Made by a program: the position numbers and the translations under genes | Part shown: positions 6,352 through 23,467 of the stretch, one piece after another | Layout: the number at the start of each line of letters is the position of its first letter | Position numbering within the stretch: the first letter of the stretch is position 1 | DNA from: a virus | Strand: one strand, 5' to 3' | DNA length: 23,773 nt | IMG/VR virus record: IMGVR_UViG_3300026455_000060 | Coordinates: 1 to 23,773 of that record | Notes under the pieces: model-generated | What the model saw: the letters and a program-made list of their open reading frames with translations, nothing else | Told to the model about the DNA's origin: nothing | Database searches by the model: none

Positions 6352-9300
6352 TGGCAATCCTGTATAAAAACAACGCGGTGTCGGCGCTGGCGAGTAGCAT
6401 CACCAACGTCGCCACGTCGATGTCCGTCACCGCCGGTCAGGGAGCGCTGTTCCCGACGATCTCCGGCTCGGACTACTTCTACGTCACGATCATCTCGTTC
6501 AGCAATCCAAGCTCCTACGAGATCGTGAAGGTCACGGCGCGGTCGACAGACACGTTCACCATCGTTCGCGCACAGGACGGCACAACCGCCGCGGCGTGGT
6601 CTGCGAATGATCGCGTCGAGCTTCGCATTACCAACGCATTACTTTCGGACGCGCTCGGCGAGCGTGCGCTAGTCGGCGGCACCAACGCGACTGGAACGTG
6701 GCCTATCGGCGTCACGGGAAACGCTGGCACAGCAACGACGCTCGCAACGGGCCGCACGATTGCCTTAACGGGAGACGTTACAGGCACCAGCGGCACGTTC
6801 AATGGTTCTGCGAACCTGTCGTTCGCCACGACGCTCGCCAACAGCGGAGTCACGGCTGGCACCTACACGAAGGTGACTGTCGACGCGAAAGGTCGCGTCA
6901 CGACTGGCGCGTCACTTGCGTCCGGCGATCTGCCGACGTACACCGGCACCCTCACCTCGTCGCAAGTCACGACCGCTCTCGGCTACACGCCGTTGTCCAA
7001 CGCCACGAGCTACCTGCCGCTCACCGGCGGCACGCTGTCCGGTGCTTTATACGGCAACGTCTTGTATGACAACAGCTATCGCGCCATGTCCGCTGTTGCG
7101 ATGGATATGCCGCGCAACATCGGAGCGTCCACCAATCTCAGCACAGACCTTGAGGCGGGTGGCGCGTACAGCAGCTACGGCTCTGCCAACACAAGCTGGG
7201 ACGCTCCATTTTCATACGGCGGTGTAATCGGGCTGGCGTTCGGTAGCGGGATTCGCGCCCAACTTGGGTTCGATATTCGGCACAACAACTCGGACTACGG
7301 AAACCTCTGGATTCGCACCAAGAACAATCTTGGGTATTCCACTTGGAGAACCGTATTGCACTCCGGCAACTACGGCAGCTACTCGCCGTCGTTGACGGGA
7401 AGCGGTGCCAGCGGAACGTGGGGCATCAGCGTTTCCGGTAACGCCGCAACGACGTCACAGCGCAATTTCAGCGGCGACATTTCTGCTACCGGTCAGGGGC
7501 GCTTCACCGGTTGGTACAACGGCAACGCGGCGACGGGACAGGCGGCAGAGATCGGAATGTCTGCTGGTCAGGGCTACATCTTCGTTTACAACCGCGATAC
7601 GTCGACTTACGGCACGCTGAATGTCGCGGCAAGCAGCGCAAACCTTCAGTTTTCGGGCAGCACGATCAACGCCACCTCGGGCGCGTTGCAGCAGGGCGGC
7701 AACCAAGTTCTCCACGCCGGTAACTACACGAGCTACTCGCCTTCCCTGACTGGCTCCGGTGCAAGTGGTACGTGGGGCATCTCCATCACGGGTAACGCCG
7801 CTACCGCGACGTCCGCTACCGACAGCACAAAACTGCCGTTAAGCGGCGGTCAACTCACGGGGCAGGTCGAGTTCCGTTCCGCGAACCAGCTGACGTTCAG
7901 CGATGGCGCGAACACGATGCGCGGGTTCATCAAGAGCCTCGCCAACACCGGCACCGGGGCTGCCGGACTTGTCATTGCGACGTCTGGCGGCGAGTCCATC
8001 GTCTTTAAGGACGGCAACGCCGACTCCGGTGACATCAACTTTGTCATTCGTGGCGATGGGGTACTCCTCCAAGGCGGCTCCAATACGCTGCTTCATGCTG
8101 GTAACTACAGCAGCTATGCACTCCCCATAAGTGGCGGGACGTTGACGGGCAACCTTTCGTTTTCCGCATCCAACCCGTCGATTACCTCCGGCGGCAGCTA
8201 CATCACGATCCCGAATGGCGCGTACTTCAGCGGCGGGACGGTGTACGTCAGCAATCAGATGCAGATTCGTGGGGGACTTGCGAACGACGTCGCATCGGAA
8301 CTCGTCTTTAACGGCGGCACCTCTGGCATAACCAGAGCGACCGGTGTTCTGCGTGTTGAAGGAAGCGCTATTCGCCAAGGAAATAACCTTGCTCGCCCAA
8401 TCGTCAACTGGAGTGCAGGCGGCGCATCAAGCGGCATGGTGATCTTCAAGTTGCCGGGAGGCTCTGGCAACTACGGCATGGTTCACATGGTGTTTGACAT
8501 CTACGAGTACGACTCGCCGAGAGTGGCGACCGTAATCGTCGGCGGTCATAACTGGAGTGGCAATTGGTACAACACCGCGTGCAATGTCCTTGGCTACACC
8601 GACAAGCAAATCCGTCTTGGATTTAAGGACGGTCAGTACTGCGTAGTATTTGGTACGTCCGGATCATCGTGGTCGTACGGCACCATTGTGCTTCGCAAAA
8701 TCCACAATGGTGGGTTCTATGACAACGTCATGGACTTGGGCGGCTCATACACCGCCGCGCAGACGACCACCGAGTCCTTTAGCGCAGTCACCGGAGACCT
8801 GCGGGCAACAAGGTCACCGGCATCTCACGAAGTGTGGGGCATCCTTTACGGATACAACAGCGTTCGCTCCAACATCTTCTACGATACGGACAACACCGGT
8901 TACTACTGCGACCCAGCCTCGTCATCCCGTCTCAGCACCATTTATTGCGGCGACGTTTACAACGACCTCGGCGGCTGGTTTCGCAACTACGGCGCGACAG
9001 GTATTTACAACCAGTCGTACGGAAATCACTTTTACTCGGATTCCGGTAACTACTGGAACGTCTCATTGGGCGGTAATTCAAACGGTGGCATCCGGTTCCG
9101 CGATAACCACGCGGGGACGATTCGCGGCTATGTGTACGCCGATACCGGCAACAACATAGGCTTTCTGAACTCAAGCGGAAGCTGGCGTGCGCGAGTCGTT
9201 GGCGATGACTACTTCCTCGTCGAAGGGTCCTCTGTTCGTGCGCCGATCTTCTACGACAGCAACGACACTGGTTACTACGCAGACCCGAATAGCACCAGTG

Positions 9301-10436
9301 TCCTTAACTACCTGCTGACCCGCCGAGTTAAGTTTATTGGCGAGGGTGGCGACTCCGGTTTAGGCACCGAAGCGTATGCAATCTACCAAGAGGGCGGGTC
9401 GTGGAGTCATCCATACCCTGACCTTCGTATCGCGTTTCACACCGGCATCAAGCTCGGTGCCAACGCGAGCTACCAAGGCATCCGGTTCTACACCGACTAC
9501 GACATGTCCTCGCAGGTCATGTCCGTCAACAACAGCAGCGATGCTCTTGGTGCTGCAAACGTATATGTGAACAACTCTCTGCAGGCTGGAAGCAGCCTGC
9601 GGGCACCAATCTTTTACGACAGCAACGACACGGGATATTACACGGACCCTGCAAGTACCTCACGCATGAACGTGGTTGATTCCAATCGCGTGACGTATCT
9701 GTCGAAGGGCTATGACGCCGTTTATGTTGGCGGTTCCGGGTTGTATCAAATTGGCTATCCAGACACGAACTGGTGGCACATCACGACCTCCGGAACGATG
9801 TCGTTGCTGCTGTCCTGTGGATGGGACTGGGACCGGCAGGTTGGGTTCCACTACACCCCAGCAGCGTCTGGTTCGAACGGCGGCACACTCCGTATCGGGC
9901 AGATGAGTAAGAACTCGTCCGGCTACAACCACACGTACACCTATATGCACATGAACGGTGCAGATAGGTTTTACTGGGACTGGAACGGCGTGTTCCAAGC
10001 ATACGGGGATTGCCGCGCTCCGGTGTTCTACGACTATAACAACACTTCGTATTACGCCGACTTGTCCTCGACCGGAGACTCTATTCGTGCAGCAGGCAAC
10101 ATCACGGCCTACTACTCGGACGAGCGCCTCAAAACACACCTCGGGACAATTCCGAACGCTGTCGACAAGGTCAAGCAGCTGGAGGGCTTCTACTACGAGG
10201 CCAACGCGACGGCACAACGACTCGGATACGAGCCGCGACGCGAAGTTGGCGTTTCGGCGCAGGCGGTGCAGCGCGTACTGCCGGAGATCGTCAAGCCCGC
10301 ACCGGTAAGCGCGGAGTACCTCACCATCGACTATGAGCGGCTTGTTCCTCTGCTCATTGAGGCCATCAAGGAACAACAAACCCAGATCGACGCCGCCGTG
10401 GCTGAGATCAAATCTCTGAAGGAGAAGATGCAATGA
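6351..10436 (+). CDS. Tail fibre protein with C-terminal S74 intramolecular chaperone
   Basis: Long receptor-binding fibre (1361 aa). Residues 1-105 form a virion-attachment type domain, including SYEIVKVTARSTDTFTIVRA then DGTTAAAW, seen at the start of many tail fibres. Shaft repeats follow, with TGNAGTAT, LPLTGGTLSGALYG and HAGNYxSYSPSLTGSGASGT. Four copies of a FYDSNDTGYYADPNSTS-type repeat lie at about residues 842, 966, 1087 and 1225. The C-terminus is a peptidase S74 chaperone: SDERLK begins at S1256, with the Ser/Lys pair expected for self-cleavage (S1256, K1261), and a final coiled coil (EAIKEQQTQIDAAVAEIKSL). In this family the chaperone trimerises the fibre and cuts itself off. A globular, Trp/Tyr-rich part at about residues 690-830 may bind the receptor. 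ATG overlaps the previous stop; the 3' end overlaps the next gene by four bases. Confidence 0.9.
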   Translation: MAILYKNNAVSALASSITNVATSMSVTAGQGALFPTISGSDYFYVTIISFSNPSSYEIVKVTARSTDTFTIVRAQDGTTAAAWSANDRVELRITNALLSDALGERALVGGTNATGTWPIGVTGNAGTATTLATGRTIALTGDVTGTSGTFNGSANLSFATTLANSGVTAGTYTKVTVDAKGRVTTGASLASGDLPTYTGTLTSSQVTTALGYTPLSNATSYLPLTGGTLSGALYGNVLYDNSYRAMSAVAMDMPRNIGASTNLSTDLEAGGAYSSYGSANTSWDAPFSYGGVIGLAFGSGIRAQLGFDIRHNNSDYGNLWIRTKNNLGYSTWRTVLHSGNYGSYSPSLTGSGASGTWGISVSGNAATTSQRNFSGDISATGQGRFTGWYNGNAATGQAAEIGMSAGQGYIFVYNRDTSTYGTLNVAASSANLQFSGSTINATSGALQQGGNQVLHAGNYTSYSPSLTGSGASGTWGISITGNAATATSATDSTKLPLSGGQLTGQVEFRSANQLTFSDGANTMRGFIKSLANTGTGAAGLVIATSGGESIVFKDGNADSGDINFVIRGDGVLLQGGSNTLLHAGNYSSYALPISGGTLTGNLSFSASNPSITSGGSYITIPNGAYFSGGTVYVSNQMQIRGGLANDVASELVFNGGTSGITRATGVLRVEGSAIRQGNNLARPIVNWSAGGASSGMVIFKLPGGSGNYGMVHMVFDIYEYDSPRVATVIVGGHNWSGNWYNTACNVLGYTDKQIRLGFKDGQYCVVFGTSGSSWSYGTIVLRKIHNGGFYDNVMDLGGSYTAAQTTTESFSAVTGDLRATRSPASHEVWGILYGYNSVRSNIFYDTDNTGYYCDPASSSRLSTIYCGDVYNDLGGWFRNYGATGIYNQSYGNHFYSDSGNYWNVSLGGNSNGGIRFRDNHAGTIRGYVYADTGNNIGFLNSSGSWRARVVGDDYFLVEGSSVRAPIFYDSNDTGYYADPNSTSVLNYLLTRRVKFIGEGGDSGLGTEAYAIYQEGGSWSHPYPDLRIAFHTGIKLGANASYQGIRFYTDYDMSSQVMSVNNSSDALGAANVYVNNSLQAGSSLRAPIFYDSNDTGYYTDPASTSRMNVVDSNRVTYLSKGYDAVYVGGSGLYQIGYPDTNWWHITTSGTMSLLLSCGWDWDRQVGFHYTPAASGSNGGTLRIGQMSKNSSGYNHTYTYMHMNGADRFYWDWNGVFQAYGDCRAPVFYDYNNTSYYADLSSTGDSIRAAGNITAYYSDERLKTHLGTIPNAVDKVKQLEGFYYEANATAQRLGYEPRREVGVSAQAVQRVLPEIVKPAPVSAEYLTIDYERLVPLLIEAIKEQQTQIDAAVAEIKSLKEKMQ
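8874..10085 (+). repeat. Four FYDxNDTGYY repeats within the tail fibre
   Basis: Four in-frame copies start near 8874, 9246, 9609 and 10023. They encode FYDTDNTGYYCDPASSS, FYDSNDTGYYADPNSTS, FYDSNDTGYYTDPASTS and FYDYNNTSYYADLSSTG. Copies 2 and 3 are nearly identical, and each is preceded by a S-x-R-A-P segment. Such repeats occur in fibres of many environmental phages and probably form repeated beta knobs or stalk segments. The spacing between copies (about 360-415 bases) means each repeat heads a module of about 120-140 residues. Confidence 0.8.
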
Positions 10437-12075: not shown

Positions 12076-12097
12076 CGGTGTCACGCTGCTGACACCG
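12076..12097 (+). terminator. Hairpin after the structural cluster, possible terminator
   Basis: CGGTGTC and GACACCG form a perfect 7-bp stem with an 8-base loop, six bases after the stop of the 63-residue gene. There is no T-run downstream, so intrinsic termination is uncertain; it could also be an RNA-processing or stabilising hairpin. Confidence 0.35.
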
Positions 12098-12165: not shown

Positions 12166-12193
12166 TTGTAGCGTCTGATTTGCCGCTTATCAT
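12166..12193 (+). promoter_or_regulatory. Sigma-70-like promoter candidate for lysis genes
   Basis: TTGTAG at 12166-12171 and TATCAT at 12188-12193 are separated by 16 bases. The -10 matches the TATAAT consensus at five of six positions; the -35 matches at only three. Transcription would start near 12200, about 25 bases before the holin ATG. The position after two hairpins and before the lysis cassette makes it plausible. Confidence 0.38.
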
Positions 12194-12225
12194 TGGGATG
12201 TGACCCGCCCCTCGGAGCCGCACCC

Positions 12226-12711
12226 ATGATGACATTGCTGTCAACGCTGACGTCCTTTTTAGCCGGTGGCCTCCCAAAGCTCCTGCAGCTATTTCAGGAC
12301 CGGCAGGACAAGAAGCACGAACTGGCGCTGATGGCGGCGCAGAAAGAGAAGGAACTCGCTCTGCTGGAGCGCGGCTATCTGGCGCAGGCCAAGGTCGAGG
12401 AGATCAAGCTAGAGCAGGTCGCGCTGACGACGGCATCCGAAGAGCGGCAGTCGCTCTACCAGCACGACGCCGAGATCGGCAAAGGCGCGTCGCAGTGGGT
12501 GGTCAACCTGCGAGCCTCGGTGCGTCCGGTCATCACCTACGGAATGTTCTGCCTGCTGCTGTTCGTCGATATCGCGGGCTTCATCTACGCGTGGAACACG
12601 GCTGTCCCGTTCGAAAAGACGCTGGAGTACCTGTGGAACGAGGACACCCAGATCATCTGGGCGTCCGTCATCGCGTTCTGGTTTGGGTCGCAGGCGTTCA
12701 GCAAGAAATGA
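12226..12711 (+). CDS. Holin, GTA-type 3TM family
   Basis: Inner-membrane protein that times lysis by opening holes for the endolysin. The 161-residue product has an N-terminal amphipathic/hydrophobic helix (LLSTLTSFLAGGLPKLLQLF), a long charged coiled coil (about residues 24-85), and a conserved C-terminal part with NLRASVRPVITYGMF, a membrane segment at about 103-122 and a second at about 138-156, ending FWFGSQAFSKK. This arrangement matches the GTA_holin_3TM family. Two adjacent ATGs (12226, 12229) are possible; GGAG lies eight bases before the first. An upstream in-frame TTG at 12193 lacks a ribosome-binding site. The stop overlaps the endolysin start by four bases. Confidence 0.82.
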   Translation: MMTLLSTLTSFLAGGLPKLLQLFQDRQDKKHELALMAAQKEKELALLERGYLAQAKVEEIKLEQVALTTASEERQSLYQHDAEIGKGASQWVVNLRASVRPVITYGMFCLLLFVDIAGFIYAWNTAVPFEKTLEYLWNEDTQIIWASVIAFWFGSQAFSKK

Positions 12712-13216: not shown

Positions 13217-13501
13217 ATGCGCCGCATCCCGCAAGCCTTCCATCTCATGGGCCACCGGATTACGGTAAAGGTGATTAGTAACGCCGATTGGAAGTACGAC
13301 GATGCCATGGGTATCTGGGAGCCGTCAAAAAACCAGATATCATTGCGACGACAGCCGCGGTCAATGTTGCGACATACGTTTTGGCACGAAGTAACACACG
13401 CAATGCTTGACGTGATCTCACACAAGTTGTCTAGTAATGAGCAGTTTGTTGATTCGATTGGCGGGATGCTCGCACAGGTTAACGACACAGCAGAGTATTA
13501 A
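13217..13501 (+). CDS. Small HExxH metallopeptidase-like protein
   Basis: A 94-residue protein with a zinc-peptidase motif HEVTHAM within TFWHEVTHAMLDVI and a downstream acidic segment (NEQFVDSIGGML) that could supply the third zinc ligand, as in minimal zincins. The N-terminal part is beta-rich (HRITVKVISNADW, ISLRR). Small HExxH proteins of this type are frequent in phages; their substrates are unknown. The start is the ATG two bases after the endolysin stop; there is no clear ribosome-binding site, so reinitiation is likely. A GTG at 13136 would extend into the endolysin. The position within the lysis cassette hints at a role in lysis or virion processing, but this is inference. Confidence 0.7.
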   Translation: MRRIPQAFHLMGHRITVKVISNADWKYDDAMGIWEPSKNQISLRRQPRSMLRHTFWHEVTHAMLDVISHKLSSNEQFVDSIGGMLAQVNDTAEY

Positions 13502-13625
13502 CCCGCTGATATTCCATCCTGTGTGCGGTCTTTGCCGCGCATAACTTCGTTGCTAGCGTTGCAAGCATAACAACCTTTCGATACACAACTTGCACGCGCT
13601 GTCTTGCGCTGGGGTTCACAGGACA

Positions 13626-13856: not shown

Positions 13857-14969
13857 ATGCCAACACCAACACTCCCAGAACACGTCTATCTTCCGATCAT
13901 CGAAATACTAGCCGAACACGACGGGAACGTTGTGCAGGCAGCGCACGCCGCGGAGAAGCGCGGTGGTTTGACGGTCGCCAAGTTCAAGACCCGCGCCTAC
14001 AAGGCACGCGATCTTGGTCTCTGGGGTCGCACCGACGAGGGCGAGTTCTGGTCCAAGGCGACTCCCAAGACCGCCAGCAACCCTCGTGTCCCAGCCGCTA
14101 CGGCCCTCCCGGATGACGACATCCCGGTCGAGGAGCTAATCGACACGATGTGCCGCCGCTACACGCGGCGCGTGGAACACGCCACCGCCAAGAAATGGCG
14201 TCGCTTCAAAGTCCCCGTCACTGGTCCGTACGCGATCATGTTTTGGGGCGATCCCCACATCGACGACAACGGATGCGATTGGGTGACGTTGCGGTCGCAC
14301 GTCGAGCTAGCGCGAAAGACCGAGGCGATGTTCTGCGTCAATGTGGGTGACACGACCAACAACTGGTGCGGACGCCTTGCCCATCTGTGGTCGCAGACCG
14401 ATACGTCAGAAAGCACCGCCAAGAAGCTGGTGAAGTGGTTCCTGAACGACGCGGGCGTGCCGTGGTTCCTATGGGTAACCGGCAACCACGATCTATGGAA
14501 CGGTCCCGTCGGCGTCGACGCGCTGGAGCGCTTCAAGCCGCATCACGTGACAATGGAGGACTGGGGCGCGAAGGTGACGCTAGAGTCCCCGGGCGGCAGC
14601 GAGTTTCGGCTGCACGTCGCGCACGACTTCCCCGGGCACAGCCAATGGAACCCGCTCCACGGGCCGCAGAAAGAGGCGCTGTGGGGCGACTACGCGCACC
14701 TCTACGTGGCGGGCCACAAGCACAACTGGGCGCTGTTTGGGGGCGAACATAGCCATCGTGGCACGCTGTACTGGCTAGCACGGGCCAAGGGCTACAAGAC
14801 CATCGACTCCTACGCGGAGCGGCTGGGATTCGGCTCACAGGGCCACGGGCATAGCATCGTCGCGGTCGTGGACCCATCGGCCCGCGGAACGGGGCACGTG
14901 GCGTGTTTTGCGGAGCCGTTTGAGGCTGCCGACTATCTCGCCTTCAAGCGACGCAAGGCGAGGGGTTAG
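13857..14969 (+). CDS. Calcineurin-like metallophosphoesterase with N-terminal extra domain
   Basis: A 370-residue protein. The metallophosphoesterase core shows the family metal-binding motifs in order: GDPHID (residues 131-136), VGDTTNN (163-169), TGNHD (208-212), HVAHDFPGHS, and GHKHNW (286-291). Such enzymes hydrolyse phosphodiesters in nucleic acids, nucleotides or phosphoproteins; the substrate here is not evident. The first ~65 residues form a separate helical domain (AEHDGNVVQAAHAAEKRGGL) resembling a small DNA-binding HTH, which suggests action on DNA. No good Shine-Dalgarno is visible: a GAGG at 13838 is 15 bases away, and a hairpin and C-run lie between. It is the last plus-strand gene before the convergent minus block, whose final stop is three bases beyond its own. 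Confidence 0.85.
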   Translation: MPTPTLPEHVYLPIIEILAEHDGNVVQAAHAAEKRGGLTVAKFKTRAYKARDLGLWGRTDEGEFWSKATPKTASNPRVPAATALPDDDIPVEELIDTMCRRYTRRVEHATAKKWRRFKVPVTGPYAIMFWGDPHIDDNGCDWVTLRSHVELARKTEAMFCVNVGDTTNNWCGRLAHLWSQTDTSESTAKKLVKWFLNDAGVPWFLWVTGNHDLWNGPVGVDALERFKPHHVTMEDWGAKVTLESPGGSEFRLHVAHDFPGHSQWNPLHGPQKEALWGDYAHLYVAGHKHNWALFGGEHSHRGTLYWLARAKGYKTIDSYAERLGFGSQGHGHSIVAVVDPSARGTGHVACFAEPFEAADYLAFKRRKARG

Positions 14970-15112: not shown

Positions 15113-15304
15113 CTAGTAGCGGACGACTTCGATCTCCTCATAGAGCCAGTTCCGCATTCCAGAAATCGGCTCGTTGATACGCACCATCCCGTGCAGGATG
15201 TGTCCCTTGGGATACACCCGCTCAACGACCCGCACCGTCTTTCGCCCGCGGCGTCGAATCAAGCTGCCCACGCGAAACGGCGGCGGTGGCTTTTTTGATC
15301 GCAT
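15113..15304 (-). CDS. Small basic hypothetical protein, possible SH3-like barrel
   Basis: A 63-residue protein with a basic Pro-rich start (MRSKKPPPPF) and a beta-rich body (RVGSLIRRRGRKTVRVVERV, then WLYEEIEVVRY). Size, charge and strand pattern would suit a small SH3-like or Tudor-like fold, but I do not recognise the family. A strong AAGGAG precedes the ATG. The first 83 bases overlap the end of the upstream gene in another frame. The function is unknown. Confidence 0.58.
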   Translation of the reverse strand: MRSKKPPPPFRVGSLIRRRGRKTVRVVERVYPKGHILHGMVRINEPISGMRNWLYEEIEVVRY

Positions 15305-15488
15305 ACTTTCGACGCTCCTTCTGAATCTCGTCGAGGGCTTCTGCCATCGTGTACTTCAGGCTGTTCCGAGTAGCACGGACCAGTAGTCGAGCCAGCATCT
15401 CGTCGTTGATCAGTACCGGCCCGATGCTGCTGCGCTCGTAGGCGAGTTCGACCTCGCGCTCCATCTCCTGCTCTTTGGCTGCGTTCAT
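15222..15488 (-). CDS. Small helical hypothetical protein
   Basis: An 88-residue protein, highly charged and probably helical: AAKEQEMEREVELAYERSSI, then ARLLVRATRNSLKYTMAEAL and DEIQKERRKYAIKKATAA. The last ~25 residues are polar and probably disordered. The ATG overlaps the previous stop by four bases (ATGA), so the first part is translationally coupled. A longer in-frame start is possible 42 bases upstream but would overlap the previous gene further. The 3' end overlaps the next gene by 83 bases, which is long for phage genes; either the tail is dispensable or the overlap is real. The function is unknown. Confidence 0.55.
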   Translation of the reverse strand: MNAAKEQEMEREVELAYERSSIGPVLINDEMLARLLVRATRNSLKYTMAEALDEIQKERRKYAIKKATAAVSRGQLDSTPRAKDGAGR

Positions 15489-15676
15489 AGGTCTCGGTTC
15501 TCCGGGTTGTTGCTGAACCACTCCATCCACGCGGTCAGCACCTTGCTGGCCTCTTCGCGGTCAATCCCAAACGCCTCCTGCAGGTATGGACGAGCGCCGA
15601 ACATATTCGTCTGCCCGGACTCGCGCAGTTCGTTCAGGTACAGGAAGTACTTCAGGTGCGGATGGTCTGGGGTCAC
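15485..15676 (-). CDS. Small hypothetical protein
   Basis: A 63-residue protein starting with GTG, four bases overlapping the preceding stop (GTGA). It reads as two or three helices (HLKYFLYLNELRESGQTNMF, EEASKVLTAWMEWF) joined by GARPYLQEAFGID. The segment SGQTNMFGARPYLQEAFGI is of a kind I associate with short conserved proteins in environmental phages, none with a known role. The Trp- and Phe-rich end suggests a packed helical bundle. The function is unknown. Confidence 0.58.
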   Translation of the reverse strand: MTPDHPHLKYFLYLNELRESGQTNMFGARPYLQEAFGIDREEASKVLTAWMEWFSNNPENRDL

Positions 15677-15882
15677 GGCAGCACCTTCTGCGTAACTGAC
15701 CGGGCGATGTCAGCGAGCATCTGCAGGAACTCTCCCGGCGGTATGCAGGAGGACGATTCGGTCCAGAGGCTCTGGTCCCATGTTTGGCAGTTGAGCAACC
15801 AGTTCAGGAGAACCCAAACCATGGTCGCGGCAAAAACGAAACTGCCGGTCGTTCCGGCAAGAACTCTGATAGCGGTGTTCAT
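15673..15882 (-). CDS. Small membrane protein
   Basis: A 69-residue protein with one strong membrane segment near the N-terminus (about residues 11-31, with FVFAATMVWVLLNWLLN), followed by a Trp/Ser/Cys-containing loop and an amphipathic helix (EFLQMLADIARSVTQKVL). The ribosome-binding site AGGAGGT is near perfect, the strongest in the minus block. The start overlaps the upstream stop by four bases. It might alter the host envelope or act as a lysis accessory; this is speculation. Confidence 0.6.
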   Translation of the reverse strand: MNTAIRVLAGTTGSFVFAATMVWVLLNWLLNCQTWDQSLWTESSSCIPPGEFLQMLADIARSVTQKVLP

Positions 15883-16148
15883 ACGACCTCCTCTGGGTTA
15901 AGCCGCTCCTCGGCGGCGTTACGAACGATCTGGAAGGCGTACCCAATCGCCTCCAGTTCGGTGTGCCACTTTTCTGGCGCGTTGCGAATCGGCTTCATGC
16001 ACAGGTAGTCCTCGGTTTCGCTCACGTACCAAGTGCTGCAATCCGGCGTGTGCCAAACAACCGCGCCGACGTCGGCCTCTTGGCAGAACACGAAGCGGCT
16101 CCGGCCCTCTTGCTCGATGTGAATCAGGTATTTGATGCGGGGTTTCAT
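15879..16148 (-). CDS. Small hypothetical protein, beta-rich with Cys residues
   Basis: An 89-residue protein with a beta-rich first half (IKYLIHIEQEGRSRFVFCQE), a central VVWHTPDCSTWYVSETEDYL containing a Cys, and a C-terminal helix (ELEAIGYAFQIVRNAAEERL). Three Cys residues are present in all, without a clear metal-binding pattern. Four-base overlaps join it to both neighbours. No family was recognised and the function is unknown. Confidence 0.6.
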   Translation of the reverse strand: MKPRIKYLIHIEQEGRSRFVFCQEADVGAVVWHTPDCSTWYVSETEDYLCMKPIRNAPEKWHTELEAIGYAFQIVRNAAEERLNPEEVV

Positions 16149-16375
16149 TCGTAGTCCTTGTAGGTGCCAGACGCCTCGTTCTCGTCAAAGCCTCGGTGGT
16201 AATCGGCAATCGACTCGGCGCTCATCCGCTCCTCTGTGACCTCCTCGCTCATGTAGGTGCCGCCCACGAAGTAGTGCGGTCGGCGGGGGCGGCGGTAGTA
16301 GCTGTCGGCCCTGCCGCGGTCGTAGGGGCCACCGTGACGGCGGTCCGTAACCCATCCCTTCTTGCTGCCCTTCAT
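16145..16375 (-). CDS. Conserved small phage protein, GGPYDRGRADSYY motif
   Basis: A 76-residue protein. The first half is basic and Tyr/Arg-rich (RHGGPYDRGRADSYYRRPRR, then HYFVGGTY), and the second half is an acidic helix (ESIADYHRGFDENEASGTY). The GGPYDRGxADSYY...PHYFVG pattern is one I associate with small conserved proteins of many phages, all without assigned function. The ATG at 16375 overlaps the upstream stop by four bases; the frame stays open further upstream but without support. The charge split (basic front, acidic end) suggests nucleic-acid or protein binding. Confidence 0.62.
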   Translation of the reverse strand: MKGSKKGWVTDRRHGGPYDRGRADSYYRRPRRPHYFVGGTYMSEEVTEERMSAESIADYHRGFDENEASGTYKDYE

Positions 16376-16632
16376 GCGGCCTCCGAGTGCAGTACGGGAA
16401 GGCAGTCGGCGGTGGGGTTGGTGGAGAACATCGCCCCGCCGTTGTTGCCCTCGTCGTCGCAGGAGGGCCACCAGAGCGAGCTATCGTCTAGCTCTAGAAC
16501 CACCGGCTTGCAGTACCAGCCGAACTCCGCGGCCTCCTGATCGGTCATGTAGCGCACCGCGACGATGCGGCGGTTGAGCAGCGCCTTCTGCGCGGCGGCG
16601 GTCCAGTACTGCGTAGGGTTGGCGATTGGCAT
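16372..16632 (-). CDS. Conserved small phage protein, VRYMTDQEA motif
   Basis: An 86-residue protein with YWTAAAQKALLNRRIVAVRY, then MTDQEAAEFGW, VVLELDD, WWPSCDDEGNNGGAMF. This succession (a helix, VRYM, EAxxxGW, WPSxDDEGNxxG) looks like a widespread short phage protein of unknown role. GGGGGAG precedes the ATG, and the stop of the upstream gene is ten bases before the start. The 3' end overlaps the next gene by four bases. Confidence 0.65.
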   Translation of the reverse strand: MPIANPTQYWTAAAQKALLNRRIVAVRYMTDQEAAEFGWYCKPVVLELDDSSLWWPSCDDEGNNGGAMFSTNPTADCLPVLHSEAA

Positions 16633-16642
16633 CGGCTCCCCC

Positions 16643-16843
16643 TTACTCGGCTGGGGCGAGAAGCGCCCGGAAACCAGCCATCACGTTGTGGAAGGCGGCG
16701 CACACATTGGGCGGCTGCTGCGGCAGGGTGCGCTCTAGAGCCTCAAGGCTTTCCGGGCTGATTCTGGCGTACCCAAGCTGCTCTACCGCGGCGGCTACCG
16801 TGTCGAGGGCGTTTTTGATCTTGTCGCCTTGGAAGGTACTCAT
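16643..16843 (-). CDS. Small helical hypothetical protein, first gene of the minus block
   Basis: A 66-residue all-helical protein (FQGDKIKNALDTVAAAVEQL, LEALERTLPQQPPN, VCAAFHNVMAGFRALLAPAE). AAGGAG lies eight bases before the ATG at 16843. A longer frame to 16900 would run through the operator-bearing region and is not preferred. It is the promoter-proximal gene of the minus block, so it is probably made first and may be controlled by the palindromes at 16894-16994. No DNA-binding motif is visible. The function is unknown. Confidence 0.6.
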   Translation of the reverse strand: MSTFQGDKIKNALDTVAAAVEQLGYARISPESLEALERTLPQQPPNVCAAFHNVMAGFRALLAPAE

Positions 16844-16893
16844 CGGCTTTCTCCTTGCTGTTGTGCGTTTGGCGTTTCTGCGATACGTTCCGG

Positions 16894-16911
16894 GTATCAT
16901 CGCCGTGTTGG
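16894..16911. promoter_or_regulatory. Operator-like half palindrome 3
   Basis: GTATCAT-CGCC-GTGTTGG. The left arm matches six of seven bases of the perfect palindrome at 16926-16943; the right arm matches four of seven. The four-base spacer is the same. It lies 51 bases before the start of the minus block's first gene. This is the weakest of the three sites. Confidence 0.35.
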
Positions 16912-16925
16912 CGTTTGCCCTTCCT

Positions 16926-16943
16926 GTATCACCGTGGTGATAC
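16926..16943. promoter_or_regulatory. Perfect operator-like palindrome
   Basis: GTATCACCGTGGTGATAC: 8-base arms around GT, a typical size for a dimeric phage regulator. It sits in the middle of the divergent region, between the minus block and the MuF gene. It overlaps the -10 region of the minus-strand promoter candidate at 16942-16970, suggesting repression. No regulator gene for it is visible in the window. Confidence 0.6.
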
Positions 16944-16970
16944 TTTGCAACCGTAGGGGCTAGGAGTCAA
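16942..16970 (-). promoter_or_regulatory. Weak promoter candidate for the minus block
   Basis: On the minus strand, TTGACT (16970-16965) is followed after 17 bases by CAAAGT (16947-16942). The -35 matches five of six consensus bases; the -10 matches three of six. Transcription would begin near 16935, inside the perfect palindrome. The divergent layout needs some promoter here, but this choice is uncertain. Confidence 0.3.
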
Positions 16971-16976
16971 GCGGTT

Positions 16977-16994
16977 TTCTCACGGGAGTGATAC
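16977..16994. promoter_or_regulatory. Operator-like palindrome 2, overlapping the MuF ribosome-binding site
   Basis: TTCTCAC-GGGA-GTGATAC. The right arm is identical to that of the perfect palindrome; the left arm matches five of seven; spacer length is the same. The GGGAG ribosome-binding site of the MuF gene lies in its centre, three bases before the ATG, so a bound protein could block transcription, and an RNA hairpin could hide the site. Confidence 0.45.
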
Positions 16995-16997
16995 TGT

Positions 16998-18167
16998 ATG
17001 GGTAGTCAGGGGGCCAAGGGGCGGGTTTTGGGGGATGTTCGGGAGGGCGTTAATCGCCCCCTCCCCCCGGATTACCGCCCTGCTCGGACGGTCGTGCTGA
17101 AGGCACGCTCCGGCGGCCTAGCCGAAATCGAAGCCTTGGCCTTCAAGCTAGAGGCAAACCTCGGAAAGGCCATCCTTGACGCCCTGACGGCCCAGCAAGG
17201 GGCCATTGACGTAGACCTGATCGCCGAAGCCCTGCAGGAGGGCAACATCGGCAAGGTGCTGCGGCTGCTCGACCTCCCCGCAGCCCTTGCCCCGCTGGAG
17301 GCGTTAACGCCCGCCATACAGGCCGGGGCGTACGCGGCTGGGGGCGCTACCGCGGCCCAGATCGCCTTGGGCGTAAAGGGCGCGACGTTCGCCTTCAACC
17401 AGCTGAACCCCCGCCTCCTCACGTGGCTGCAGACCTACAGCCTCGGCCTCATTCGCCAGATCAACGATCAGACGAAGGAAGGCATCCGGCAGTACCTGCT
17501 GGACGGCATGACGGCTGGCGCGAACCCCAAGGAGGTCGCCCGTCAGGTCAAGGGGATCATTGGGCTGACCGACCGGCAGGCCAAGGCGGTGCAGAACTAC
17601 CGCAAGCAGCTGGAGACCTTCCACCAGCGGCGGTCGGCGAGCGGCTTCGGGCTGGGCAACAAAGTGAGCCGCGTCAACGGCACGCAGGTGCTGGCGCTGA
17701 ACCCGGACGGCACGCCCAAGGACGGCATCAACGAGCGCCGCCTGCGCGACTTCCGCTTCGACGGGCAGCTACAGCGTGCGATGGACAACGGCACGCCGCT
17801 CACCAAGGCGCAGATCGACAAGATGGTCGCCGCCTATGAGCGCAAGTACCTCGCGTATCGGTCGCGCACGATTGCCCGGACCGAAGCGACGCGCACCAAC
17901 AACATCGGCATCCAAGACGCGTGGCAGCAGGCGCTAGAGAAAGGCGTCGTCAAAGAGGAACTGACCCGCAAGCAATGGGTGGTCGCCCGCGACGAGCGGC
18001 TCTGCGAAATCTGCGGCCCCATCCCAAGCATGAACCCCAAGAAGGGCGTGAAGCACGCGCAGCCGTTCCTGACACCGGACGGCCCCGTCTCGCTCCCGCC
18101 GATTCACCCGAACTGCCGCTGCACCGTCGTGTATCGCCAGTACGAACCGTCGCAGCTGCAGGAGTAG
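16998..18167 (+). CDS. MuF-type head morphogenesis protein
   Basis: Minor head protein of the phage Mu gpF / SPP1 gp7 family (389 aa), which binds the portal and is packaged in small numbers in the capsid. The diagnostic C-terminal domain is present: WVVARDERLCEICG (residues 327-340, with a C-x2-C pair) and PPIHPNCRC (367-375), preceded by the RSRTIARTEATRTNNIG segment that marks this family. The N-terminal ~120 residues are helical and Ala/Gly-rich. GGGAG is nine bases before the ATG. The gene is unusual in lying about 14 kb from the portal and opening a new transcription unit under operator-like control. In other phages MuF domains are often joined to, or sit beside, toxin domains; here the giant multidomain gene lies three genes away. 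Confidence 0.88.
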   Translation: MGSQGAKGRVLGDVREGVNRPLPPDYRPARTVVLKARSGGLAEIEALAFKLEANLGKAILDALTAQQGAIDVDLIAEALQEGNIGKVLRLLDLPAALAPLEALTPAIQAGAYAAGGATAAQIALGVKGATFAFNQLNPRLLTWLQTYSLGLIRQINDQTKEGIRQYLLDGMTAGANPKEVARQVKGIIGLTDRQAKAVQNYRKQLETFHQRRSASGFGLGNKVSRVNGTQVLALNPDGTPKDGINERRLRDFRFDGQLQRAMDNGTPLTKAQIDKMVAAYERKYLAYRSRTIARTEATRTNNIGIQDAWQQALEKGVVKEELTRKQWVVARDERLCEICGPIPSMNPKKGVKHAQPFLTPDGPVSLPPIHPNCRCTVVYRQYEPSQLQE

Positions 18168-18777: not shown

Positions 18778-19329
18778 ATGGACAACACGAGCGTATCAAA
18801 ACTTGCCGAACGCATCTCGCAGTTATCTGCCGGTGCGGAACGTGTTCTGGAGCAGCTAAATAAAGCCGACCAGACGTACTCGCCGCCAGCTGGCGTGCAG
18901 AGCGCCGCGGCGCGTGGCCTGAAGCTGCGCGAGAAGTGGAACCGCGGCGGGCTGTCCAACGCCGAGGCGTCCGCGCAGGGCATCGGCTCCGGCGTGCAGC
19001 GTGCTGTGAATCTCAAGAACGGCGACGCGATCTCGCAGCAGACCGTGAAGCGGATGCACGCGTTCTTCTCGCGGCACGCGAAGAACTACCGCCCCGACGA
19101 GAAGGAGTCTGACGGCGGCCCGACCGCTGGCACGATTGCGTGGCTGCTGTGGGGCGGCAACGCGGGTCGAGACTGGGCGCAGGGGATCGTCAACGGCATC
19201 GAAAAGATGTCGCCGGACGTCGGTGACGTTCATGTGCCGTCGACCGAGATGCAGAAGCCCGGGCGCAAGACCGGATACGAACTGGCGATGTCTCGGAAAA
19301 AGAGCGCCAAGCCGTCGAAGGGAAGCTGA
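18778..19329 (+). CDS. Conserved phage domain protein, RMxxFFxRH...GTIAWLLWGG
   Basis: A 183-residue protein. After a helical lead of about 40 residues, the conserved part starts with AARGLKLREKWNRGG (residues 44-58), continues through TVKRMHAFFSRHAKNY and ends with GTIAWLLWGGNAGRDWAQ (118-135). This RxxxFFxRH plus IAWLLWGGxAGxxW pattern is a short domain found in many phage and prophage proteins, usually beside head or portal genes, often fused to other domains. Its function is not established. A basic tail follows. GGAG lies seven bases before the ATG, and the giant gene starts one base after the stop, indicating co-translation. Confidence 0.7.
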   Translation: MDNTSVSKLAERISQLSAGAERVLEQLNKADQTYSPPAGVQSAAARGLKLREKWNRGGLSNAEASAQGIGSGVQRAVNLKNGDAISQQTVKRMHAFFSRHAKNYRPDEKESDGGPTAGTIAWLLWGGNAGRDWAQGIVNGIEKMSPDVGDVHVPSTEMQKPGRKTGYELAMSRKKSAKPSKGS

Positions 19330-19330
19330 C

Positions 19331-22300
19331 ATGGCTACCCCTGAAGCAACCGAAGCACGCGCTGCACTCGCCGCCCTCCGTGCCGCCATCAAGGAGGCGG
19401 TTGAGGAGTCCCTGCAGAAGGGGTTCTGGAACCGCTGGCCCTCTGGGTCGCCGGGAGGCGTTGGTGGGCAGTTCGCCCCCAAGGGCACGAGCGGCGGCGG
19501 TAGCGGGGCTTCAGGCGGCTTCAAGAACTACCTTGGTGGCCTGTTTGGGGGCGGCTACGGCAGCGGCTCCTACAGCCCGCCCAAGCCCAAGGGACCGCCT
19601 CCGGGGGCCAAGCCGCACCCGAAGGTCAACGACAAGGGCGCGGCGGTCACGATCAACTACCCAAGCAAGCCGTCGCATCGCAGTACGTGGACCGACCCGA
19701 ACAAGACCGCGGTATTCACCCCGGGCGGAGACGCTCCCGACACGCTGAACGGCGTGGCGATGAAAACGTGGAACCCGCCGAAGGATGGCTGGGCCAAGGT
19801 CACGGGGACCAACGAGAAGCTCGACGCCGATCTGCCGTTTGAGGCGAACCCGAAGAAGTCGGTCGGCGCTGGCGTGCTGATCGTCGAGGACGACGGGCGC
19901 GTGTGGCTCACGCGGCCCACCAACAGCTACGGCGGCTACCAGAACACCTACCCCAAGGGGACCGTCGAGGACGGCCTCACGATGCAGCAGAACGCGATCA
20001 AGGAGGCGTACGAGGAGACGGGTCTCAAAATCAAGATCGTTGGCATCCTCGGGGACTACGAGCGTGACACGTCGAAGGCGCGGTTCTACCTTGCTCGCCG
20101 CACGACCGGTACGCCGAAGAACATGGGTTGGGAGTCGCAGGCGATCAATCTGGCGACACTCAAGGACGCCAAGAAACTCCTGAACCGGACGCACGACAAG
20201 CAGATTCTCGACGACCTAGAGGACTTGCTGTCGTTCGGTCCGCTCAAGAAAGCCAAGGGTCCGGTGTCTGGCGCGTGGACGATGCAGCCGCGCTGGCCCT
20301 CGGGGTCCGCACTCGGCGGGCAATGGAAGGCGATGGGCGCTGACGGCGTGACGCTGCCGCCCAAGATCGCCGGTGGCATCGACGGCAAGAACCCCGTCTA
20401 CCAGAAGAAGATCAACGCGATTCACTCGGCGGCGCAGGCGGGCAATCTTGCCTCGCTCGACAACTTCATCGCCCAGCACAAGGACGCTGACAGCAAGTAC
20501 GCGTCGGGGATGAAGGGAACGTCGCACGTTAAGTGGGGCGCGAGCGTCTATCAGTACGCGGTGCAGGTGCGCGGCGACGTCACGCACAAGACCAAGGCCA
20601 CCGCGTCGGCTGACGCCATTCGTGGCCCCAAGGCGCTCTCCAGCTACGGCACACAGGTTGGCGCGAAGCCGGGAGGCTCCAACCCCGGCGCGATGTACCA
20701 AGAGGGAGGCGATAAGTGGCTGGTCAAGGGCAACGCCCAGAAGGTCAGTGGGAACGTCTCGGATAGCGTCAGCGACGCCCGCGCACGCAACGAGGTGCTG
20801 GCGGCAAAGCTCATGCAGGCCGCTGGCGTCGGTGCGCCAGAAATGCGGCTCGTCGACTTGGAGGGCAAGTACGGCGGCGGGCTTGGTGTCGCCAGCAAGA
20901 TGATGGAAGGCGCTGCCTTCAACCCGAAGAACCCCGCGCACGTTGCCGCGGCGCAGGCGACGTACGCCACGCACGCGTGGCTGGCGAACTACGACGTGCT
21001 GGGCATGGGCTACGACAACACGATCATCACACCGGACGGCAAAGCCGCGTGCATTGACCCGGGTGGTGCCCTGCTCTTTCGCGCTCAAGGCTTGCCGAAG
21101 GGCGAAGCGCACGGCGTGAAGGGTGGCCTGCTCGACGCATCCGCACCGGAACTGACGTCCATGCGGCAGACGACGAAGGAGCAGTCGACCGTATTCGGGT
21201 CCATGACGCAGGCACAGCTGCAGGCCAGCGCACAACAACTGGCGACCGTATCGGACGAGACAATCAAGAAGCTCGTCGACACATACGGGCCACCGAACCC
21301 AGCCGAGAAGGCGGCGCTGGCGCTGAACCTGATTGCACGACGCGACGCGGTGCTGAATCAGATCGGCGGGGCTGCCGCGCTAAAAGCCGCGGAAACCGAC
21401 GACCCCGCATCGTCTGGCGTGATCGCCGCTGCGGCGGCTCAAGCCATCACGATGGACCCGTACACCGCCTACAAAGCCACCAGCGACATGGTGCAAGAGG
21501 CAGAGAAGGCAGCCGCAGAGTTGCTGGCTGACGGCGGGCTTACATCGAAAGAGTTCAAGGTGGCGATGCTCGGCGAGATGCCGAAGGCGGCGCTCACCGC
21601 GCACACCGTTCTCATCTCAAAGATTGCCACGCTGACCAACAACGGCGACCAGACGGGGCTGGCAAACCTCGCGCTGGAGCTTCAGAACACCTACCCCGGT
21701 GTCAGCGGCTTCGACGCGCAGATCAAGAACTTCGCCCGCCTCGGCCTCATCGCGTCAACGATGACGAAGATGGAGTCCGCGCAGGCGATGACGCCACCGT
21801 CCGACGTCCCTGCGAAGCCGGTGTTTACGACCGGCACGAAGTACGCCGATCAGTACTACAACAGCATGGTCGACAAGTTCGCGGCGCAGCACGCGGCAGG
21901 CGACTTGGCGGGGCTGCAGTCCTTCCAAGGGGTAGGCGGCAAGCTCTACGCCGACGGCGTGCCGTGGAAGTCTGGCACGGCGAACGGCCTCAAGGCGGCG
22001 GCATACCACGCCGCGCTCGTCAAAGACCTGCAGGCCAAGCAGGGAGCGCAGGTCACGGCGGCAGCCGCACAGGCTGACAAGGCGATCAGCACGCCGGTCC
22101 CGCCGCCGAAGGACACCAAGCCGCTGCCCGCGATGCCCGACTTCGACAAGGCGTTGTTGCCCACCACCAACAGCAACGCGGCGTCCCACAACAGCAAGGT
22201 GCAGCAAATCAAGGCGTACGCGGAAAGCGGCGACGTCAAGGGACTGCTGTCGCTCAACTACGGGACCAACACCTACGGACACAAGCAGGCGCAGCTGGCG

Positions 22301-23467
22301 AACAACGCGCTGAAGTCGCTCGGCTCCACGCACTTTGTGGTGACGGGGCAGAAGAAGGGCCAGCACCCAGCACTCAACGGGGGCGTTACGCCCCAGCGAG
22401 CCGCGGCAGCCGCCAAGACGGTGGGCCAGCAGCCTCCCCCGCCCCACCCCGCTGCAACGACGGCAAAGGCAGGCAAGGTCAATCTCTCCAAGCTCGACAT
22501 GAGCAAGGCGATTGCGCCGACCATGCCGAAGTTCGCGGCCTCGTCGAAGGCGTGGGTCAACGATCAGAACAACAAGCTCGCGCAGCAGGTGCAGCAGATT
22601 TTCCAGAGCGGTGACTACGTCGCGCTCCGGAACATGACCTACGAATCGCTCGACAAGGAGACCGGGAACATCCTCGGCTCCAAGCCGCTGTCGGAACACC
22701 CCGCGAAGGAACTCAAGGCGTTCTACGACGGCTGCTTGTCCGTGATGGACGAAGTGGCGAACCCGCCGGAGCCGCTGAAGCAGTTCTCGGTGGGACACGC
22801 GACGAGCGTCTCGCAGGTCAGCGCGGCGTTCCCGTCGAAGAAGTACGGGACGACGATCAACAAGGTCGCCAACAACGAGAAGATCGGATTCTGGATTGGC
22901 CTCGGCAAGATCGACAACCCCGACGCGCTGATGCCAAAGAAAACGATGGACGTAACGAGCGCCGATGTGAGTAAGGCGTCGTCGGACTACGTCAAGATGT
23001 CGAGCGGCGCGAAGGCGTTCGTGAAGATGGTGCAGTCCGGTGGCGTGATTTCAGCCTACCGAGCTGGCAAGAAGACCTATCAGGGCCACGACCTGAAGCA
23101 GGTCGCCAGCGAGGCGCTGAAGTACGCGCAGGAGAAGCCAGAGGGCACGACGATCTACCGCTGGCAGAACATGACGCAGGACATGATCAACAAGCTGATC
23201 CAGTCCGGCCCCGGCACCGTCATGCAGTGCAGCGGCCCGATGCCCACCTCGTATTCCCCGACGGCAACTTCCAATTTCGGGCAGCACCGCGTTGAGTTCG
23301 TGTATGCCAAGGGAGCCAAGGCCATTGACTCGCATGGCTCCGGTGGCTATGGAAGTGAGAAGGAAATCAGCATTCTCCCTAACACCCGCTTTATTTTGCA
23401 GAGCATCAAGAAGAACGGGAACCGGTATGACATTCGGGTACTCATGCTGCCGCCCGACTGGACGTAG
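19331..23467 (+). CDS. Giant multidomain protein: Nudix, kinase-like, repeats, ADP-ribosyltransferase
   Basis: A 1378-residue protein, probably virion-carried and host-acting. Seen in order: a leader with RWPSGSPGGVGGQFAPKG (35-52) and a Gly/Pro linker; a Nudix domain (about 178-285; box G210-L232 with E225, E228, E229, G231, but Leu at the usual E7 position and Lys for Arg); a second RWPSGSALGGQW (321-332); a kinase-like domain (about 461-620; WLANYDVLGMGYDN with D555, and IDPGGALLFRAQGLPKG with D576), resembling HipA/PI3K-like kinases; a helical region; four divergent repeats; and a C-terminal ADP-ribosyltransferase (about 1180-1378) with R1277 (IYRWQNM), Ser/Thr motif PTSYSPTATSNFG (1305-1317) and ExE at E1343/E1345. 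ATG at 19331 follows the previous stop by one base; the longer frame to 19136 overlaps that gene and is rejected. A secreted toxin is unlikely, as no signal peptide is visible. Confidence 0.85.
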   Translation: MATPEATEARAALAALRAAIKEAVEESLQKGFWNRWPSGSPGGVGGQFAPKGTSGGGSGASGGFKNYLGGLFGGGYGSGSYSPPKPKGPPPGAKPHPKVNDKGAAVTINYPSKPSHRSTWTDPNKTAVFTPGGDAPDTLNGVAMKTWNPPKDGWAKVTGTNEKLDADLPFEANPKKSVGAGVLIVEDDGRVWLTRPTNSYGGYQNTYPKGTVEDGLTMQQNAIKEAYEETGLKIKIVGILGDYERDTSKARFYLARRTTGTPKNMGWESQAINLATLKDAKKLLNRTHDKQILDDLEDLLSFGPLKKAKGPVSGAWTMQPRWPSGSALGGQWKAMGADGVTLPPKIAGGIDGKNPVYQKKINAIHSAAQAGNLASLDNFIAQHKDADSKYASGMKGTSHVKWGASVYQYAVQVRGDVTHKTKATASADAIRGPKALSSYGTQVGAKPGGSNPGAMYQEGGDKWLVKGNAQKVSGNVSDSVSDARARNEVLAAKLMQAAGVGAPEMRLVDLEGKYGGGLGVASKMMEGAAFNPKNPAHVAAAQATYATHAWLANYDVLGMGYDNTIITPDGKAACIDPGGALLFRAQGLPKGEAHGVKGGLLDASAPELTSMRQTTKEQSTVFGSMTQAQLQASAQQLATVSDETIKKLVDTYGPPNPAEKAALALNLIARRDAVLNQIGGAAALKAAETDDPASSGVIAAAAAQAITMDPYTAYKATSDMVQEAEKAAAELLADGGLTSKEFKVAMLGEMPKAALTAHTVLISKIATLTNNGDQTGLANLALELQNTYPGVSGFDAQIKNFARLGLIASTMTKMESAQAMTPPSDVPAKPVFTTGTKYADQYYNSMVDKFAAQHAAGDLAGLQSFQGVGGKLYADGVPWKSGTANGLKAAAYHAALVKDLQAKQGAQVTAAAAQADKAISTPVPPPKDTKPLPAMPDFDKALLPTTNSNAASHNSKVQQIKAYAESGDVKGLLSLNYGTNTYGHKQAQLANNALKSLGSTHFVVTGQKKGQHPALNGGVTPQRAAAAAKTVGQQPPPPHPAATTAKAGKVNLSKLDMSKAIAPTMPKFAASSKAWVNDQNNKLAQQVQQIFQSGDYVALRNMTYESLDKETGNILGSKPLSEHPAKELKAFYDGCLSVMDEVANPPEPLKQFSVGHATSVSQVSAAFPSKKYGTTINKVANNEKIGFWIGLGKIDNPDALMPKKTMDVTSADVSKASSDYVKMSSGAKAFVKMVQSGGVISAYRAGKKTYQGHDLKQVASEALKYAQEKPEGTTIYRWQNMTQDMINKLIQSGPGTVMQCSGPMPTSYSPTATSNFGQHRVEFVYAKGAKAIDSHGSGGYGSEKEISILPNTRFILQSIKKNGNRYDIRVLMLPPDWT
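20390..22756 (+). repeat. Four divergent helical repeats in the giant protein
   Basis: Repeat cores encode QAGNLASLDNF, AAGDLAGLQSF, ESGDVKGLLSL and QSGDYVALRNM. The units start near residues 354, 838, 947 and 1074 (positions 20390, 21842, 22169 and 22550), each 55-75 residues, with a preceding helix rich in N/Q/K and a following Ala/Lys helix. Pro-rich linkers separate units 2-4. The sequences are diverged beyond nucleotide similarity, so this is a protein-level repeat. Similar units were not seen elsewhere in the window. Confidence 0.6.

Follow-up and report, generated by a model that had tools for sequence, protein, structure and literature searches.

The three palindromes that lie between a leftward block of small genes and a MuF-like gene are best read as operators of a temperate-phage immunity repressor, and as one cluster within a set scattered across the phage genome; on sequence comparison we put the probability of this reading at roughly 0.7. 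About a dozen matching sites are spread over early, replication and late genes, and most likely help to keep the dormant phage silent. "Window" refers here to the whole stretch of viral DNA analysed, 23,773 nucleotides in length.

Three operator-like sites in the MuF junction

The centres of the three sites fall at 16902.5, 16934.5 and 16985.5, giving spacings of 32 and 51 bp; both the sequence and the match counts bear out the three spaced palindromes of the original prediction (Table 1). The intergenic gap which holds them measures 154 bp (16844-16997) if the first leftward gene begins at ATG 16843. Site A is a perfect inverted repeat with 8-bp arms (GTATCACC-GT-GGTGATAC), site B has two mismatches to GTATCAC-N4-GTGATAC, and the consensus of the whole family is (G/A)TATCAC-N4-GTGATA(C/T). 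The four-base spacers had been called identical, which holds for their length and fails for their sequence. One palindrome had been said to overlap the MuF ribosome-binding site, and site B indeed covers that region, ending 3 bp short of the ATG at 16998. With up to 3 mismatches allowed, the whole window contains 4 matches against 0.47 expected, and a perfect 8-bp inverted repeat arose in 26 of 3000 shuffled 154-bp gaps (about 1%). At a cut-off of 10 bits the gap itself holds three sites, where shuffled gaps average 0.004, as scored with a matrix trained partly on these same sites.

Table 1. Coordinates of operator sites, promoter candidates and flanking genes in the window.
Feature	Position	Strand	Remarks
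Operator at start of small terminase gene	12-29	none	same family; 17.4 bits; right-hand one of two sites spaced by 52 bp
Operator GTGTCACGCTGCTGACAC, lysis region	12078-12095	none	same family; 15.1 bits; before the 12193/12226 gene
Weaker site TTATCATTGGGATGTGAC, lysis region	12187-12204	none	12.8 bits; at start of the 12193/12226 unit; also in L006
Weaker site GTATTAACCCGCTGATAT	13495-13512	none	13.5 bits; before the 13626 gene
Remainder of leftward small-gene block	15113-16632	-	seven candidate ORFs; no confident family match
First gene of leftward block	16643-16843	-	66 aa; no family match; AAGGAGA ribosome-binding site upstream of ATG 16843
Candidate rightward (MuF) promoter, TTGTGC-N17-TACGTT	16861-16889	+	operator 1 just downstream; weaker than leftward promoter
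Operator 1 (site 1), GTATCATCGCCGTGTTGG	16894-16911	none	one good half-site; 10.2 bits
Alternative leftward promoter, TTGCAA-N16-TACAGG	16923-16950	-	site A inside spacer
Operator 2 (site A), GTATCACCGTGGTGATAC	16926-16943	none	perfect; 25.2 bits; centre on predicted start point of leftward promoter
Predicted leftward sigma70-like promoter, TTGACT-N17-CAAAGT	16942-16970	-	-35 at 16965-16970; -10 at 16942-16947; predicted start near 16935; sites A and B on either side
Operator 3 (site B), TTCTCACGGGAGTGATAC	16977-16994	none	covers MuF ribosome-binding region; 51 bp from site A
MuF-like head morphogenesis protein	16998-18167	+	first gene of rightward unit; PF04233 5.9e-12; phrog_3517 4.5e-60

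Position of the sites relative to predicted promoters

In the terminase and MuF junctions of this phage group, a pair of sites usually 50-52 bp apart (55 in the MuF junction of G007) brackets a leftward promoter of the form TTGnnn-N17-(-10). The combined P for this arrangement was about 1e-12 over 11 junctions, each gap being shuffled and one of two close relatives being counted; related sequences are still present among the 11, and the value is hence not a strict probability. In most junctions the -10 element runs up to the border of site A, whose centre coincides with the predicted start point, and site B immediately precedes the start codon on the rightward side; the promoter is displaced by a few bases in G007 and L041. 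The leftward promoter occupies the same place in L009, L011 and L012 as well as in the terminase junctions of most relatives. The window's own copy has a weak -10 (CAAAGT), and the leftward promoter may take either of two layouts, the alternative having a counterpart in TTGnnn-operator-TATTAT, which we made out by eye at further operators of the phage family (L031 7030, L043 4727, L036 2010). The rightward candidate is the same in L009 and L011 and reads TTGTTT-N17-TATCAA in L012, and no junction scored above 4 for a rightward promoter within the gap between sites A and B. For helical phasing of ten operator spacings, Rayleigh p ranged from 0.009 to 0.68 depending upon the assumed period, and we draw no support from it.

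With sites over the leftward start, at the putative rightward promoter and on the MuF start, one repressor would be expected to shut both directions. A dimer on site A would cover the start point of the leftward promoter and occlude the small-gene block, a second dimer on site B, 51 bp upstream, would bracket the RNA polymerase site and cover the MuF start region, and a dimer on site 1 would sit at the start of the putative MuF promoter. In a lysogen with the repressor bound, both directions would thereby be silenced together, and upon induction both would be released.

Conservation of the sites in relatives

Among relatives of the MuF gene taken from viral contigs, site A was identical in L006, L009, L010 and L011, and site B was present in the same four, sometimes nearer the consensus; its versions in L009 and L010 (TTATCACCGGAGTGATAC) and in L012 (TTATCATTCGGGTGATAT) are better matches than that of the window. 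Operator 1 lies at the same place in L005-L011 and in L012, where MuF identity has fallen to 71% and all three sites recur with altered sequence (TATCAACCCCTTGTCA, TATCACAGTAATGACA and TATCATTCGGGTGATA). The identity of the operator span to L006, L009 and L011 was 100, 87 and 85%, versus 70, 68 and 70% for the first leftward gene, a contrast that holds for the leftward side only since the MuF start is conserved about as well as the operator span. Retention down to 71% MuF identity, together with fixed positions relative to the predicted promoters, lends good support to the earlier description of the palindromes as operator-like.

A phage-wide set of sites

The motif recurs, well above chance, at terminase, MuF, protease, lysis, methylase, replication and recombination operons of the window phage and its relatives. 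Sites of at least 10 bits numbered 12 in the window, 15 in G014 and 14 in G015, versus 0.5, 1.2 and 1.5, respectively, in shuffled sequence. The matrix behind these counts was trained on MuF and terminase sites partly from the scanned genomes, and an untrained count of spaced palindromes was therefore added, in which TATCA-N6-TGATA ranked first in G014 (5 vs 0.012) and G007 (3 vs 0.0018) and was not the top pattern in the window itself. A few of the lower-scoring matches lie inside genes (e.g., window 1969 and 6029) and are probably due to chance.

Several of the individual loci could be followed across relatives. At the terminase gene the left member of the pair was found on contigs L031 and L045, and the pair is kept in nine relatives. 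The lysis-region site at 12078-12095 is unchanged in L009 though its flanks have diverged, and the site at 13495-13512 is matched by diverged sites in the corresponding position of L006, L009 and L011. Sites at 638 and 751 mark the protease start on L017. Operators also precede the exonuclease and replication operons that neighbour the repressor gene. G012, G014 and G015 carry a three-site array in 32-bp steps, its second and third members in G012 and G014 being half-sites read by eye. The prohead protease gene is preceded by an operator pair 112-113 bp apart (L017 560-820; G014 12439-12569), with a terminator-like hairpin following the first site of the G014 pair.

The scan covered 103 loci, namely relatives of the terminase on viral and genome contigs together with five loci that came from the regulator searches; strong sites in pairs were almost entirely limited to loci whose terminase identity reached about 70% or above. 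Matrix matches stood at background in the more distant relatives G016, G022 and G023, and neither these nor G009 contained a clearly comparable alternative operator palindrome. The terminase search of genomes returned mostly metagenome bins and distant matches, and megablast of the window against annotated phages gave no match.

Candidate regulators on overlapping contigs

The original prediction placed the regulator outside the window, which agrees with our finding of candidates on overlapping contigs instead. G013 overlaps the left end of the window by 5061 bp at 99.8% identity and G012 does likewise over 4.3 kb; both encode a tyrosine integrase, a YqaJ exonuclease and a CI-like protein of 204 aa that has an HTH_3 domain, and the same region, with recT, is found in G011, an 86%-identical relative. 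Judged by the integrase and the CI-like protein on contigs that match the window at 99.8%, the phage is temperate.

The CI-like protein (L117 12217-12831 in G012) combines an XRE helix-turn-helix with a beta-rich C-terminal domain, and its PHROG matches are phage transcriptional repressors. Its structural model is confident for the HTH domain only; the top PDB fold match of this otherwise low-confidence model was a lambda-186 hybrid repressor, and a PDB sequence search returned no match. Pfam gave no S24 match below 0.01, and by eye the C-terminal domain, where the model is of low confidence, looks S24-like with Gly and Arg at the Ser and Lys positions (IDKDGLHP, LVREI). If that reading is right, replacement of the catalytic Ser and Lys would mean a CI-like protein that lacks RecA-driven self-cleavage.

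A second candidate, a small conserved HTH protein of about 90-95 aa, is encoded between recT and ssb; one copy lies at L113 8821-9108 on the minus strand. Its gene and that of the CI-like protein lie on the same strand, so the arrangement is not that of a divergent cI/cro pair flanking a shared three-operator region, and the promoter of the CI-like gene itself showed no strong operator. Searches of viral contigs with the CI-like and the small HTH proteins returned mainly the same phage group. The search for a phage HTH regulator that had been proposed for these sites yielded these two candidates. We place the CI-like protein first as the likely binder; binding presumably represses, the predicted promoters are presumably used, and the small HTH protein may share the sites, acting on them in the manner of Cro.

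Operators in a relative with no CI-like gene detected

The CI-like protein and the integrase are both present in G011, G012, G013 and G015. The 62.7 kb of G014 (L120, L123, L118 and L121) gave no integrase match, and no CI-like gene was found between the operator array and the DUF1064-like gene, which is its usual place. The G014 operators score as high as those elsewhere, and the three-site array before the exonuclease gene is present. Hence the CI-like protein is not the sole reason that the sites persist, unless its loss was recent; either the gene has recently been lost or the sites are used by a different protein, for which role the small HTH protein is the obvious candidate. Mycobacteriophage D29, described as having arisen by deletion from a temperate parent, has conserved stoperators (PMC5712189). 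By analogy, the G014 operators may be relics, and G014 is possibly a virulent derivative that retained them.

A rival proposal is that the small HTH protein, as a Cro-like or lytic-timing regulator, is the main binder in place of the CI-like repressor. The protein occurs in every operator-bearing relative for which the region is available (G011-G015), G014 included, and its gene belongs to the exonuclease operon under operator control, which is the place to expect a Cro-like protein. However, G009 and G016 have relatives of the small HTH protein, that of G009 with nearly the same recognition helix, and have no such operators, and the proposal leaves the tie with lysogeny genes unexplained; we consider it unlikely. 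A broader variant gives the dispersed operators a double role: the CI-like repressor would use them in lysogens, and during lytic growth the small HTH protein would use them to time late and accessory genes, with the sites at the MuF, terminase and protease starts acting as roadblocks as well as promoter operators. This variant would explain the whole operator set in a relative that has neither integrase nor CI-like gene, and we regard it as tentative, at odds no better than those of the small protein as main binder.

Other readings of the junction

The palindromes had originally been interpreted as a switch deciding between the small-gene block and the head/effector unit. The convergent promoter candidates and the three unequal operators do resemble local switch regions, but such sites, and the promoter that they bracket, are found again at the terminase junction and at other units, and all of the site positions predict one protein repressing both directions. 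A choice made locally by these three sites therefore seems improbable to us, and joint shutdown takes its place in the interpretation.

Some temperate phages exploit host repressors, e.g., host LexA, and the regulator gene is not beside the MuF-junction cluster, as would suit sites of a host protein. Against this, the phage has repressor-like proteins of its own, the sites follow the phage clade, and the half-site sequence and spacing fit XRE-type phage operators, making a host regulator very improbable. Finally, although short inverted repeats arise by chance, as the shuffled gaps illustrate, the recurrence, conservation and fixed promoter geometry of the sites contradict a reading as chance palindromes or structural DNA repeats devoid of regulatory role, which is scarcely credible.

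Comparison with known immunity systems

We return to the immunity-repressor reading, for which several known systems offer comparison. Like the CI/Cro operators of lambda and 186, the sites are palindromic, fall in the 16-18 bp size class, overlap a promoter (here a predicted one) and occur in clusters of three, and the half-site TATCAC resembles that of lambda. In lambda and 186, operators cluster at a small number of early promoters, whereas in the window phage they are found at late structural units as well. Face-to-face promoters are known from P2-like phages, 186 among them (PMC7498355), and the convergent pair proposed at the MuF junction is similar.

Dispersed-operator immunity is already known from three other systems. 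In phage P1 a single repressor, C1, is served by 22 operators dispersed over the genome (PMC8546580), and the window phage likewise has one motif at many transcription units; the P1 operators, however, are asymmetric 17-mers (ATTGCTCTAATAAATTT) and those of the window phage are palindromic. Mycobacteriophage L5 has about 24 stoperators and an operator over its genome, mostly intergenic (PMC5712189, PMC6550527); these are asymmetric, oriented with transcription and mostly not associated with promoters, in contrast to the palindromic sites at promoters and gene starts described here. In Bacillus SPbeta the SPBRE element, found in silico first and proven later, is repeated in phage promoter regions and bound by the master repressor MrpR (PMC10516654), a protein of tyrosine-recombinase fold, whereas the candidate of the window phage is an XRE CI-like protein. 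Features that distinguish the window phage from these systems are the palindromic XRE-type sites, the promoter-bracketing pairs and the placement at late-gene starts.

Operators dispersed in this way would let a lysogen silence late and accessory genes directly, in place of a single early cascade. Here the arrangement takes the form of a recurring, roughly 51-bp promoter-bracketing module with palindromic XRE-type sites in an uncultivated metagenomic phage group, and the motif can serve as a simple tag in the sequence by which to predict the immunity groups and transcription units of these phages.

Other genes of the window

Four further genes were noted. A metallophosphoesterase-like gene (13857-14969; phrog_7339, DNA repair exonuclease) lies between the lysis genes and the leftward block. 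Upstream, 3985-6351 encodes an alanine-rich 788-aa protein with many similar short repeats, and 6351-10436 a tail-fibre-like protein of 1361 aa whose C-terminal end (SDERLKTHLG...) resembles, by sequence, an S74 intramolecular chaperone. The long protein encoded at 19136-23467 contains a Nudix domain (PF00293) and a C-terminal ExE-like stretch, EKEISILPNTRF, that is suggestive of an ADP-ribosyltransferase.
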